DNA from: Clostridia bacterium
GTDB lineage: Bacteria > Bacillota > Clostridia > Oscillospirales > CAG-272
Direction of reading: 5' to 3'
Assembly (NCBI GenBank): GCA_017398595.1
Contig: JAFQFR010000014.1
Span: forward strand, 1-64,000
DNA length: 64,000 nucleotides
In this document: positions 13,905 to 20,622 of the stretch, piece after piece
How the letters are laid out: each line of letters opens with the position of its first letter
Numbering within the stretch: position 1 is the stretch's first letter
Translations under genes and position numbers: made by a program
The notes under the pieces: generated by a model
What the model saw: the letters and a program-made list of their open reading frames with translations, nothing else
Database searches by the model: none
Told to the model about the DNA's origin: nothing

Positions 13905-15323
13905 ATGCTCATAAAAATCATCAATTTTATTTACGACCGACTATGGGGAGATCTGATCACCATTCTCCTACCGAACGGCGATACGCTCGGTCTCTCGTTT
14001 TTGGTGATCGTGCTGCTCGCCATGGGCATCTATTGCACCATCCGAACAAAGCTTCTGCCCGTGCGCCTGTTCCCCGAAATGATCCGTGCGGTCAGTGAAA
14101 AAGAGAAAAAAGAAAAACACACCCTCTCCGGTTGGCAGGCGCTGATCGTTTCCACCGCAACGCGCGTGGGCATGGGCAATCTTGCCGGCGTCGTCGCGGC
14201 GATCTCCGCGGGCGGCGCAGGTGCGGTATTTTGGATGTGGATCACGGCGCTGATCGGCACTTCTTCCTCGTTTGTGGAGTCGGTCCTCGCGCAGAAATAT
14301 AAAACCGCAGATCCGATCTACGGCGGCTACAAGGGCGGTCCCGCCTATTACATCCACGCATTTGCGGAAAAAGTACGCAAGAAGAAGCTCAACCGCTCCG
14401 TACTTGCGATCCTGTTTGCCGTCTCGGGTCTGATCTGCTGGTGCGGCATCAGCCAGGTCGTCGGAAACTCGGTGACCGAGGCATTTGAAAACGCTTTTTC
14501 GATCAAGCCGATCTATACCATCATAGCACTTGTACTGATCTCCGCAGTGATCGTTCTGCGCAAGAATGCAACGGTCAAGGTGCTCGACATCATCGTGCCG
14601 ATCATGGCAGGCTGCTATTTCCTCATCACCATCTTCATTCTTGCAAAAAACTTTGCACTGCTCCCCGGTGTTTTCGGCAAGATCTTTTCCGAGGCATTCG
14701 GCATCCGCCAGGTAGTTGCCGGCGGATTCGGTGCCGTAGTCATGAACGGTGTCAAGCGCGGTCTGTTCTCCAATGAGGCAGGTTCCGGCTCCGCTCCCTG
14801 TGCAGCCGCTGCCGCCGAGACCGACGATCCCGCAAAGATCGGACTCACGCAGGCGCTCGGTGTGCTGATCGATACCGTCGTCATTTGCAGCTGCACCGCG
14901 TTTATCATGTTACTGGTTCCCGAGGAGACCGTCGCCACGCTCGAGGGCATGTCGCTTCTGCAAGTAGCAATGACCTATCACCTCGGCACATTCGGCAATG
15001 TTTTCATAGCGATCACGCTGTGGCTGTTTGCTTTCTCCACCTTTATCGGCGTTCTGTTCTATGCACGCTCCAACATTTCCTATATCTTCGGCGACAAGCA
15101 ATGGGCGCAGACAGCCTATAAGCTCGTCACCCTTGCCATGCTGTTCATCGGCGGACTTGCCGCCTATGAGGTCGTTTGGACAGTCGGCGACATCGGCATT
15201 GCGCTGATGACCATCTTCAACGCGATCGCGCTCTTCCCGATGTGCGGCGAGGCAATGCAGATCCTCAAAAACTACGAGCAGAAAAGAAAAGCGGAAAAAC
15301 TGCAAAAGAAAGCCAAAACATAA
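13905..15323 (+). CDS. alanine/glycine:cation symporter (AGCS family)
   Basis: A 472-residue integral membrane protein with about ten helices. AGCS hallmarks are visible: GNLAGVVAAISAGGAGAVFWMW near residue 90, FVESVLAQKYK, the GGYKGGPAYYI loop, and LFSNEAGSGSAPCAAAAA near residue 290, which contributes to substrate and sodium binding. It imports alanine or glycine with Na+ or H+. GGGAG lies 13 bases before the ATG. It has its own promoter and appears monocistronic. No clear terminator follows; the MATE promoter begins 9 bp after the stop. Confidence 0.94.
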   Translation: MLIKIINFIYDRLWGDLITILLPNGDTLGLSFLVIVLLAMGIYCTIRTKLLPVRLFPEMIRAVSEKEKKEKHTLSGWQALIVSTATRVGMGNLAGVVAAISAGGAGAVFWMWITALIGTSSSFVESVLAQKYKTADPIYGGYKGGPAYYIHAFAEKVRKKKLNRSVLAILFAVSGLICWCGISQVVGNSVTEAFENAFSIKPIYTIIALVLISAVIVLRKNATVKVLDIIVPIMAGCYFLITIFILAKNFALLPGVFGKIFSEAFGIRQVVAGGFGAVVMNGVKRGLFSNEAGSGSAPCAAAAAETDDPAKIGLTQALGVLIDTVVICSCTAFIMLLVPEETVATLEGMSLLQVAMTYHLGTFGNVFIAITLWLFAFSTFIGVLFYARSNISYIFGDKQWAQTAYKLVTLAMLFIGGLAAYEVVWTVGDIGIALMTIFNAIALFPMCGEAMQILKNYEQKRKAEKLQKKAKT

Positions 15324-15331
15324 AATTGCTA

Positions 15332-15360
15332 TTGACTCTTCTGCATGAAAATGGTAGAAT
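15332..15360 (+). promoter_or_regulatory. promoter of the MATE leader transcript
   Basis: TTGACT (15332-15337), 17 bp, TAGAAT (15355-15360). The start of transcription is expected near 15366, right at the first base of the structured leader. Confidence 0.85.
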
Positions 15361-15364
15361 AACC

Positions 15365-15500
15365 ACGGTCATCGGAGGACCTTTTCAACGTATTGAAAGG
15401 TTGGATAAGATGTCGTACACACTGTTTCTTCGGAGGGTGTATCGCCGTAGCGATATGCCCGGATAAGGGAAACGGCTGTGTACGGTGTCTTATCCTTTTT
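15365..15500 (+). ncRNA. tandem-module structured leader with terminator, candidate riboswitch
   Basis: Two homologous RNA modules. Module 1: TCGGAGG (15372-15378), stem ACCTTTTCAA, loop CGTA (15389-15392), stem TTGAAAGGT, GGATAAG (15403-15409), closed by ACGGTCAT/ATGTCGT with one bulge. Module 2: TCGGAGG (15430-15436), an 11-bp stem around loop CGTA (15446-15449), GGATAAG (15461-15467), closed by GTTTC/GAAAC. The segment 15403-15420 can also pair over 18 positions (three G-U) with 15478-15495, followed by TTTTTATTT: a terminator enclosing module 2. Because 15403-15416 is used by module 1 or by the terminator but not both, stable module 1 should permit transcription. The downstream gene is a MATE pump; the guanidine-IV (mepA) riboswitch class sits in that context in Clostridia, but I cannot confirm a match to its consensus. 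Confidence 0.8.
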
Positions 15501-15516
15501 ATTTAAGGAGATCTGT

Positions 15517-16845
15517 ATGCATATTCAATTATCTGATCATTTTACCTATAAAAAACTGCTGCGCTTTACCATGCCGTCCATTATCATGATGATCTTCACC
15601 TCGATCTACGGCGTGGTGGACGGCTTTTTCGTCTCCAACTTCGTGGGCAAGACGCCGTTTGCCGCGGTCAATTTCATCATGCCGTTTTTGATGATTCTCG
15701 GCGCGCTCGGCTCCATGTTCGGCACGGGCGGCAGTGCGCTCATTGCCAAAACCTTAGGAGAGGGCGACAACGAGCGCGCGAAGAAGCTCTTTTCACTGTT
15801 CGTCTACATATCGGCGGCATGCGGCATCGTCATCGCGGTGCTCGGCATTCTGTTCATCCGTCCCATCGCGGCTTTTCTCGGTGCCGAGGGAGAGCTGCTC
15901 GACCAATGCGTGCTGTACGGCAGGATCATCCTCGTCGCGCTCCCCGCATTTATGCTGCAATATGAATTTCAGAGTTTTTTCGTCACGGCTGAAAAACCGC
16001 AGCTCGGTCTTGCCGTTACGGTCGCGTCGGGCGTGGCAAACATGGTGCTGGACGCACTGCTCGTAGCGGTATTCCCGCTGGGTCTTGTCGGTGCGGCACT
16101 GGCGACCGCCGTCAGCCAACTGATCGGCGGCATCGTACCGCTGTTCTACTTCAGCCGTCCGAATACAAGTCTCCTGCAACTCACGAAAACCGATCTTGAC
16201 GGCAGAGCCCTGCTCCGCGCCTGCACCAACGGCTCGTCCGAGCTGATGAGCAACATCTCGATGTCGGTCGTCAGCATGCTCTACAATGTACAGCTCATGC
16301 AGTACGCGGGCGAGGACGGCGTTGCGGCATACGGCGTGCTGATGTACGTCAACATGATCTTCCTCGCCGCCTACATCGGCTATTCGGTCGGCACAGCGCC
16401 CGTCATCGGCTATCACTACGGTGCGGCAAACCACAACGAACTGAAAAGCTTGCTGCAAAGAAGTTTTGTCATCATCGGGATCTGCTCGGTCGCCATGCTC
16501 GTACTTGCCGAGATACTCGCACAGCCTCTCGCCGCGATCTTCGTCGGCTACGATGAAGCGCTCATGGCGCTGACACTGCGCGGCTTCCGCATTTTCTCGA
16601 TCTCTTTCCTGTTTTCGGGCATTGCCATCTTCGGTTCGTCCTTCTTCACCGCGCTCAATAACGGTCTCGTCTCGGCGCTTATCTCCTTTTTGCGCACGCT
16701 GGTATTTCAGATCGCAGCCGTACTGCTCCTGCCGCTCATTTGGGAGATCGACGGCATCTGGATCTCCATCGTCGTCGCCGAAGTCATGGCATTCGTCGTC
16801 ACCATGCTCTTCCTCGCCGGTAATAAGAAAAAGTATCGGTACTGA
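15517..16845 (+). CDS. MATE-family multidrug/cation efflux pump (MepA-like)
   Basis: A 442-residue, roughly twelve-helix transporter. It opens MHIQLSDHFTYKKLLRFTMP and continues through the MATE-typical SIYGVVDGFFVSNFVG, with GSMFGTGGSALIAKTLGEGD in the first half and YHYGAANHNELKSLLQRSF at the start of the second-half repeat. It is expected to expel cationic drugs or metabolites in exchange for Na+ or H+. The ATG at 15517 lies six bases after AAGGAG (15505-15510); an upstream in-frame GTG lies inside the terminator stem and is rejected. Expression is likely controlled by the leader RNA. A dispersed hairpin repeat follows. Confidence 0.93.
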   Translation: MHIQLSDHFTYKKLLRFTMPSIIMMIFTSIYGVVDGFFVSNFVGKTPFAAVNFIMPFLMILGALGSMFGTGGSALIAKTLGEGDNERAKKLFSLFVYISAACGIVIAVLGILFIRPIAAFLGAEGELLDQCVLYGRIILVALPAFMLQYEFQSFFVTAEKPQLGLAVTVASGVANMVLDALLVAVFPLGLVGAALATAVSQLIGGIVPLFYFSRPNTSLLQLTKTDLDGRALLRACTNGSSELMSNISMSVVSMLYNVQLMQYAGEDGVAAYGVLMYVNMIFLAAYIGYSVGTAPVIGYHYGAANHNELKSLLQRSFVIIGICSVAMLVLAEILAQPLAAIFVGYDEALMALTLRGFRIFSISFLFSGIAIFGSSFFTALNNGLVSALISFLRTLVFQIAAVLLLPLIWEIDGIWISIVVAEVMAFVVTMLFLAGNKKKYRY

Positions 16846-18451: not shown

Positions 18452-18622
18452 TTATTTCTTACAATCGCATTTGCTTTTACAATGTTGGCAATCGCCGCAG
18501 CAGCCGTCGCTGCCGCCGCAGCCGGGACATTTTCCGTCCTTAAAGGAACGCAGTGTGGAGCGGATGGCGAGGAACAGTGCCGCGCCGACCACCGCTAAGA
18601 GCACATAGTCCAGCCACGTCAT
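18452..18622 (-). CDS. FeoB-associated Cys-rich membrane protein
   Basis: A 56-residue protein: one N-terminal membrane helix (MTWLDYVLLAVVGAALFLAI), a basic stretch RSTLRSF, then a tail with nine cysteines (CPGCGG, CCGDCQHCKSKCDC). Its ATG overlaps the feoB stop as ATGA. Such short Cys-rich proteins regularly follow feoB in Firmicutes and may take the place of FeoC, but their role in iron uptake has not been established. The ATG at 18622 was chosen because of the coupling; a longer reading would lie inside feoB. Confidence 0.9.
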   Translation of the reverse strand: MTWLDYVLLAVVGAALFLAIRSTLRSFKDGKCPGCGGSDGCCGDCQHCKSKCDCKK

Positions 18623-20622
18623 ACAAGCAGTCCTCCGATCTGATATACCAGCAAGCCGCACAGCCATGCAACTACGCACTGCAGTACGACAACGCCGAGC
18701 GTCTGCCGCCATGTGCCGAGCTCACGGCGCACGGTTGCGATCGCCGCAACACAGGGGGTATACAGCAGCGTGAACACCAAGAAGCTTGCCGCCGTGAGAG
18801 GGGTAAACAGACCGGCAAGCGCGGTGGAAAGTTCTTCCATGCCGACGCCGAGCAGTACGCTCATCGTGCTGACGACCGCCTCTTTCGCGGTAAATCCGGT
18901 GATCAGCGAGGTGGCAACACGCCAGTCGCCAAAGCCAAGGGGCGTGAAGATCGGCGCGATCCACTTGCCGACGATGGCAAGCAGGCTGTCGCCGCTGTTT
19001 TCGACGATATTGAGCTTGGTATCAAAGCTCTGCAGGAACCAAATGAGCACCGTCGCGGCAAAAATGACCGTGAATGCCTTCTGCAAAAAGTCCTTTGCCT
19101 TGTCCCACAGCAGCAGCGCAACGCTCTTTGCCGAGGGGATGCGGTAGTTCGGCAGCTCCATAACAAACGGAACAGGCTTGCCGCGGAACGCGGTGCCTTT
19201 GAGCGCGAGCGCTACGAGAATGCCGACCAAAATACCCGTGGCATACAGCACGATCATCACCAGTGCCGCATGATCCGGGAAGAATGCCGCCGCAAAGACC
19301 GTGTAGATCGGGATCTTTGCCGAACAGCTCATAAAGGGCGTAAGCATGACCGTCATGCGGCGGTCACGGTCGGACGAGAGCGTGCGCGTTGCCATGATGG
19401 CGGGCACACTGCAGCCGAAACCGATCAGCATCGGCACGATACTGCGTCCCGAAAGACCGATCTTGCGCAGGAGTTTATCCATAACGAATGCAATGCGCGC
19501 CATATAGCCCGTATCTTCCAAAATGGAGAGGAAGAAGAACAGAACAACGATCAGCGGCAGGAAGCTGAGCACGCTGCCTACACCCGCCAATACGCCGTCT
19601 ACCACAAGGCTCTGCACCACGGGGTTGATACCGTAGGCGGTGAGCGCACTGTCGATCACGGCGATCAGCCAATCAATGCCCGCGGCAAGCAGATCGGACA
19701 AAAAGCTGCCGATCACGTTGAACGTGAGATAAAAGATGCCCAGCATGACGCACAGGAAGATCGGAATCGCGGCATATTTATTGGTGAGCACCGCGTCGAT
19801 GCGCGTGCTGCGCCGATGCTCCTTACTCTCCTTGCACTTGACCACCGAATCGGCGCACGCCTTCTCGATAAAGTCATAGCGCATTTCGGCAAGTGCCGCG
19901 TTGCGGTCGAGCCCCGTGTCGTGCTCCATCTCGATGATGCTGTGTTCGATCATCTCGATCTCGTTTTGACTGAGCTCCAGCTTCTCCGCAAACGAATCGT
20001 CGCCCTCGATGAGTTTCGTCGCACAGAAACGCGGCGAAATGCCCGCGTTTTCGGCGTGGTCCTCGATGAGATGCGAGACCGCGTGGATGCATCTATGTAC
20101 CGCGCCGCCCTCGCAGAAGTCCATGACGGCGGGATAGATCTTTCCCTTGGCAACGCGCTGTGCCTCGCGCGTCAGCTCGGAAACGCCCTCATTCTTCGCC
20201 GCACTGATCGGCACAACGGGCACGCCGAGCGCCGCCGACAGCTTCTTAACATTGATCGTGCCGCCGTTGCCGCGCACCTCGTCCATCATATTCAGCGCAA
20301 TGACCGTGGGAATATGCAGGGAGAGCAACTGCAGTGTGAGGTAGAGGTTGCGCTCGATGTTGGTCGCGTCCACGATATTGATAATGCCGTCGGGTTTCTC
20401 ATTGAGCACGAAGTCGCGCGTGACGATCTCCTCGCTCGTATACGGGCGAATCGAGTAGATACCCGGCAGGTCTACGACCGATGCGTCGATGCCGCGGATG
20501 GCACCGACCTTGGAATCGACCGTGACGCCCGGAAAGTTGCCGACGTGCTGATTCGAGCCGGTCAGGGCGTTGAACAGCGTGGTCTTGCCGCAGTTCTGAT
20601 TGCCTACAAGTGCAAAGATCAT
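18619..20622 (-). CDS. feoB: ferrous iron transporter FeoB
   Basis: A 667-residue protein. The N-terminal G domain shows G1 GNQNCGKTTLFN, G2 region NFPGVTVD, G3 DLPGIYSI and G4 NMMD. A helical linker follows (to about 270), then the polytopic membrane domain with the two Gate-type motifs near CSVPAIMATRTL and SCSAKIPIY. FeoB imports Fe2+ across the cytoplasmic membrane. It is translationally coupled to feoA upstream and to the Cys-rich gene downstream by ATGA overlaps. Length is near the lower end of the family, and no FeoC-like fusion is seen. Confidence 0.97.
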   Translation of the reverse strand: MIFALVGNQNCGKTTLFNALTGSNQHVGNFPGVTVDSKVGAIRGIDASVVDLPGIYSIRPYTSEEIVTRDFVLNEKPDGIINIVDATNIERNLYLTLQLLSLHIPTVIALNMMDEVRGNGGTINVKKLSAALGVPVVPISAAKNEGVSELTREAQRVAKGKIYPAVMDFCEGGAVHRCIHAVSHLIEDHAENAGISPRFCATKLIEGDDSFAEKLELSQNEIEMIEHSIIEMEHDTGLDRNAALAEMRYDFIEKACADSVVKCKESKEHRRSTRIDAVLTNKYAAIPIFLCVMLGIFYLTFNVIGSFLSDLLAAGIDWLIAVIDSALTAYGINPVVQSLVVDGVLAGVGSVLSFLPLIVVLFFFLSILEDTGYMARIAFVMDKLLRKIGLSGRSIVPMLIGFGCSVPAIMATRTLSSDRDRRMTVMLTPFMSCSAKIPIYTVFAAAFFPDHAALVMIVLYATGILVGILVALALKGTAFRGKPVPFVMELPNYRIPSAKSVALLLWDKAKDFLQKAFTVIFAATVLIWFLQSFDTKLNIVENSGDSLLAIVGKWIAPIFTPLGFGDWRVATSLITGFTAKEAVVSTMSVLLGVGMEELSTALAGLFTPLTAASFLVFTLLYTPCVAAIATVRRELGTWRQTLGVVVLQCVVAWLCGLLVYQIGGLLV

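Follow-up and report, generated by a model that had tools for sequence, protein, structure and literature searches.

A candidate tandem riboswitch overlapping the terminator in the leader of a MATE efflux transporter gene of a Clostridia bacterium

The window, that is the whole stretch of 64,000 nucleotides analysed here, contains a MATE family efflux transporter gene at 15517–16845 (+) (Pfam MatE, 1.2e-40; 148.1 bits against TIGR00797, for which the cut-off is 147.4). The leader of this gene has a Na+/alanine symporter gene (13905–15323) as its 5′ neighbor. A consensus scan found a sigma-70 type promoter, TTGACT-17-TAGAAT, at 15332–15360 (+) with 10 of 12 matches. As the first-pass annotation had stated, it places +1 at the start of a first RNA module, at about 15366–15368, although by chance shuffled sequence would be expected to contain 0.7 such sites. 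Module 1, the predicted antiterminator hairpin, covers 15365–15416 (+) and is based on a covariance model, folding and covariation in 39 homologous modules. It consists of P1 (CAUC/GAUG, 15370–15373/15409–15412), an internal loop GGAG/GGAUAA (15374–15377/15403–15408) and P2 (15378–15388/15393–15402), which is closed by a CGUA loop at 15389–15392. Module 2 (15422–15476, +; covariance model and fold) has a P1 at 15422–15430/15467–15475, a P2, an internal loop with GGAUAA at 15461–15466 and a CGUA loop at 15446–15449. The covariance model gave E-values per genome of 4.9e-11 for module 1 and 3.0e-12 for module 2, both copies being themselves among the sequences from which the model was built. A probable ribosome binding site, AAGGAG, was seen in the sequence at 15505–15510 (+). 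Elsewhere in the window, a FeoB ferrous iron transporter gene is located at 18619–20622 (−), and a Gut-1 RNA (RF01706) adjoins two tRNA genes on the minus strand (324–400, 444–517, 548–621).

The initial description of two modules with common loops and differing stems was confirmed. UCGGAGG...CGUA...GGAUAAG is present at 15372–15409 and 15430–15467, and a pattern search found these two copies in the window and none elsewhere in this genome; the reversed pattern, used as a control, gave 0 matches in this genome and 3 scattered among 246 genomes. Module 2 repeats the internal and apical loops of module 1 on unrelated helices. The loops proposed as the conserved core were indeed shared, but the internal loop does not comprise the whole of UCGGAGG/GGAUAAG: it was narrowed to GGAG/GGAUAA because CAUC/GAUG pairs beside GGAUAA. 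The proposed alternative pairing was recovered as well, in that GGAUAAGAUGUCGUACAC (15403–15420, +), which is common to the 3′ side of module 1, pairs either within module 1 or, as the 5′ arm of a terminator, with the 3′ arm at 15478–15495 (+). The 18 contiguous pairs of the terminator helix include 3 G-U pairs, and the U-rich tract UUUUUAUUU follows the helix at 15496–15504 (+); module 2 sits within the terminator loop. The whole leader folds 7 sd more stably than shuffled sequences, and 15403–15495 taken alone 9.3 sd more stably. When folding of the growing transcript was calculated, the minimum-energy structure kept module 1 until the 3′ end reached about 15486, and the terminator was favored beyond this point, by a margin of 11 kcal/mol at full leader length. 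A switching window therefore exists.

Homologous leaders were found widely, and their helices covary. Searching 246 genomes of the same family with the two-module pattern revealed tandem leaders in two congeners (G030 and G134) and in two further genera (G167 and G237); matches in G233 and G086 look like coding sequence. Since MAFFT alignments of the modules misplaced helices, a covariance model was built from five modules of consistent register, and with it we retrieved more leaders of the tandem type, leaders that have a single module, and a divergent GGAUUA group. In 39 modules from tandem leaders the helices were shown to covary around fixed loop residues, CGUA being kept in nearly all rows of the alignment and GGAUAA in most. 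Compensatory changes amounted to 171 compared to 59.8 in shuffles and to at most 56 when the partners were slid out of true register, and 18 of the 19 pairs showed changes on both sides; the alignment used for these pair counts was fitted to the structure and is biased in its favor.

In a genome collection, at least 120 loci matched the pattern TCATCGGAGG-N12-36-GGATAAGATG, for which about a dozen chance matches are expected by a rough estimate from base composition; two matches inside genes (L070 and L144) were set aside as chance. Nearly all of the matches listed were from Bacillota and Bacteroidota, mainly Clostridia and Bacteroidota but also Negativicutes, and single metagenome-assembled genomes labelled Erysipelotrichaceae, Lentisphaeria, and Elusimicrobiales were found among them. 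When 391 evenly sampled Clostridia genomes were searched with a slightly looser pattern, 8 had a match, in some cases probably by chance; the class is thus patchy in its occurrence. Among the matches listed, the downstream protein was MATE-like in 99 of 116 cases (proteins of at least 40 aa, compared with MATE query proteins). The RNA was also located before transporters that do not look like MATE, judged by eye (L103:2486, −; L108:5960, −; L104:6086, +; L168:803, +): the protein of L103 resembles a DUF554 transporter and those of L104 and L168 are ABC-like, while those of L108, L141, L154, and L157 appear MFS-like by eye, without a family scan. Four contigs of a viral collection (L207, L208, L209, and L210) contain the pattern; the copy in L208 is near a MATE-like gene and perhaps represents host sequence beside a prophage.

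A single-module relative, GUCACCGGAGGC...CGUA...GCCGGAUUAGGUGUCC, was found in L016–L032 and L037–L039, where it precedes one family of GNAT acetyltransferases that are 70–88% identical between genomes. It carries GGAUUA where the main class has GGAUAA. These leaders have a second hairpin, CCRAG-UGAG-CUYGG, the 3′ side of which overlaps a terminator arm, and the terminator competes with this hairpin and not with the module, which is a different switching layout. The GNAT-type RNA is a relative of the class; this is not proof of the same ligand.

A common architecture was evident among the matches listed. Of 118 distinct leaders, 106 have a downstream arm that can pair with GGAUAAG (at least 6 of 7 positions) and precedes a T-run. 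The terminator arms were picked for their pairing to GGAUAAG, and the outward extension of the helix was no part of that choice; at the fourth outward position 76% were paired compared to 47% (sd 4) when arms were shuffled among leaders. What lies between the terminator arms is, in most leaders, a plain hairpin; the tandem form, which is less common than the single form with one module and a plain hairpin inside the terminator, has a complete second module there. Both hairpins were more stable than shuffles (z about −2 for the first and about −2.2 for the second).

The dimensions of the first hairpin were found to go with the type of the second, as labelled by simple patterns that left about 20 leaders without a type. 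For tandem leaders the length of the first P2 region is 27.5 (sd 0.6), and its loop is CGNA without exception; a CGGG-UGCG-CCCG-like second hairpin goes with a length of 26.1 (sd 0.35) and mostly a CGCA loop, and a UAAAA-type one with a length of 19.3 (sd 4.0) and no CGNA loop in any leader. Besides, the distance from CGUA to CGUA loop is 56–60 nt in 20 tandem leaders. The fixed spacing and fixed stem length indicate that the two hairpins probably touch, and docking through the loops is probably the best explanation for both. Four-base complementarity of the apical loops CGCA/UGCG was seen in about ten leaders that vary little: the sole double change among the complementary loop pairs is CGGU/ACCG in L148, CGUA/UGCG contains one wobble, and CGGA/UGCG, CGUA/UGAG and some other combinations mismatch. 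Complementarity of the hairpin 1 loop (CGCA, CGUA, or CGGU) to the loop of the terminator hairpin (UGCG or ACCG) can be seen in the single-form leaders L107, L072, L041, and L148. In the tandem form the two CGUA loops are only partly complementary, by CG/CG alone. The first-pass annotation had module 2 tuning the response of module 1; the 56–60 nt spacing suggests instead that both act jointly, as a single unit.

Taken together, the leader probably contains a cis-acting RNA switch in tandem form, most likely an ON riboswitch absent from Rfam 15 that acts by antitermination of the MATE gene. This reading is built on features that are present in the compared sequences: both alternative helices, covariation, conservation, gene association, and fixed hairpin spacing. 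General features of riboswitches are found, namely a conserved aptamer-like domain, covarying helices and a position in 5′ leaders, and the expression platform and the aptamer-like module are mutually exclusive, the terminator sharing a strand of module 1. During transcription module 1 would fold first, and GGAUAAGAUG would be held within its P1 and internal loop. Without stabilization, module 1 would lose this strand to the 3′ arm at 15478–15495, and the resulting terminator would stop transcription before the MATE gene. A ligand bound in the purine-rich GGAG/GGAUAA pocket would let module 1 persist, so that the MATE gene would be read through. The second hairpin would probably dock on the first via the apical loops and complete or stabilize the bound state. 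We infer a small-molecule ligand, the ON direction and docking from the sequences; an aptamer for a small molecule is most likely because an invariant purine-rich internal loop is set in variable helices and linked to exporter genes, and the ligand is probably a toxic compound exported by the pump. With somewhat less assurance, we favor the broader view of a widespread class in gut bacteria that senses an unrecognized toxic metabolite or xenobiotic and activates MATE genes as well as MFS-like, ABC-like, and GNAT genes, its aptamer consisting of two hairpins and its tandem subclass having the second hairpin replaced by a copy of the sensing module.

A strong terminator would by itself account for the low-energy fold of the full leader, and the repeats could then have arisen by chance and have no sensing function. 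This is scarcely credible, since the alternative module shows covariation and does not vary in its unpaired residues, and since genera that are unrelated have the tandem copy with the spacing kept constant. GGAGG looks like a ribosome binding site, and drug-resistance leaders often attenuate through ribosomes; GGAGG could accordingly be the Shine-Dalgarno sequence of a leader peptide on which drug-stalled ribosomes block the terminator. Yet start codons 4–12 nt past GGAGG were present in 49 of 118 leaders among the matches listed, compared to 43.8 in shuffles, and at no common position, and the compensatory changes preserve helices rather than codons. Bacteroidota, in which Shine-Dalgarno pairing is of little importance, conserve the motif just as well. 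A leader peptide is thus unlikely, and ribosome-mediated attenuation as the mechanism very much so.

A protein could take the place of the small molecule, the module being bound by an RNA-binding regulator (ANTAR-like, BglG/LicT-like, or other) and the two modules by a dimer. In the RAT elements of BglG/LicT and in ANTAR antiterminators a hairpin with determinants in its internal or apical loops excludes an overlapping terminator, and the present RNA is likewise a loop-bearing hairpin excluding an overlapping terminator. Protein-bound antiterminators also occur as paired hairpins at fixed spacing, and the 56–60 nt distance would suit a dimeric protein. The cognate proteins were, however, missing from most of the carriers tested: ANTAR domains from six of ten genomes carrying the RNA, one of them 99% complete, and CAT_RBD from eight of the ten, among them every one of the five with a completeness of 90% or more. 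The genome of the window itself encodes a CAT_RBD protein (BglG family). The occurrence of the class in both Bacillota and Bacteroidota and the simple second hairpin of many leaders also speak against a protein-dependent antiterminator, which we regard as rather unlikely.

The scan for known classes with Rfam 15 matched no family: at gathering thresholds no relevant family was found for the window or the homologous leaders, and at lax thresholds the matches were sub-gathering and to unrelated families. Absence from Rfam 15 is by itself weak evidence of novelty, because guanidine-IV-like leaders were unmatched too. Neither a description of such a MATE leader motif nor the core strings in print were found in open-licence papers. 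Judging by comparative analysis, we consider it most likely that the leader represents the tandem subclass of a riboswitch class not described before. Few exporters are as common in gut bacteria as MATE pumps, and for the most part little is known of their natural substrates. If the RNA measures the substrate directly, it would offer a handle to identify it, as guanidine riboswitches did for SugE. A control element appears to be unannotated in many genomes, because the RNA precedes MATE genes in more than 100 species of at least two phyla and has no Rfam model. How two aptamers share one decision could be studied well in the tandem form, where the terminator of one module encloses the other.

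Guanidine-IV riboswitches (mepA motif or GGAM-1) are transcriptional ON switches in exporter leaders, including those of MATE genes (PMC7736828, PMC12186494, PMC11611296), and the first-pass annotation had considered the tandem RNA a possible member. The likeness is one of exporter leader and working: two hairpins, the second of them in the terminator, and a proposed loop–loop pairing (here possibly CGCA/UGCG). For comparison, leaders of SMR genes were collected, most of which were guanidine-I and four of guanidine-IV layout. These four (L176, L200, L201, and L202), which Rfam 15 left unlabelled, have two hairpins with complementary loops, an RCCG first loop, an AGGYCUURG terminator loop, and ACC/GGU and GCC/GGC pairing, and we infer from their sequences that they are guanidine-IV. 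L176 and L201 have GUCUUAG in their terminator loops, in agreement with residues of the L. lactis guanidine-IV RNA 95 Lla, for which positions U63, G66, U67, A71, and G72 were reported (PMC7736828). The present RNA has instead CAUC-GGAG...GGAUAA-GAUG with an invariant internal loop, a module that guanidine-IV lacks, and GGYCUURG was found in 1 of 118 leaders among the matches listed.

The Gd4v motif, an orphan variant of guanidine-IV, shares with the present RNA its MATE and GNAT genes and its occurrence in gut bacteria, but more than half of its examples precede a PRK07324 transaminase gene and it is described as almost identical or extremely similar to guanidine-IV in structure (PMC9788692), which the present RNA is not; the two are set apart by the description of Gd4v. 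A search for Gd4v before the aminotransferase genes of one Megamonas and one Anaerovibrio genome found none. Among the 116 downstream proteins of the matches listed, no aminotransferase was seen and, judged by eye, no SMR protein among those that are not MATE-like, so that sugE, the top gene of guanidine-IV, is absent from the regulated genes. The RNA could still be a diverged member of a guanidine-IV/Gd4v superfamily with two hairpins, a loop–loop pseudoknot, a terminator and MATE and GNAT genes, for which the overlapping gene classes (PMC9788692) and the same logic would speak. Because the residues and the SMR and transaminase genes are lacking, we did not file it there despite the similar working; such a relationship seems improbable, membership of guanidine-IV itself is not upheld, and membership of Gd4v fits poorly by gene association.

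Guanidine-II (mini-ykkC) resembles the tandem leader in having two similar hairpins with CG-containing tetraloops before an exporter gene. It differs by its ACGR loops and is not known to have a conserved internal loop, and the Rfam guanidine-II model was unmatched here. ACG trimers are reported for guanidine-II (PMC7736828). Tandem-aptamer riboswitches, as reviewed elsewhere, have two homologous aptamers before one expression platform (PMC9481103), and to that extent the two homologous aptamer-like modules and single expression platform found here are alike. The present arrangement differs from them in two ways: the terminator competing with module 1 has module 2 enclosed in its loop, and most homologues carry a plain hairpin in the place of module 2.
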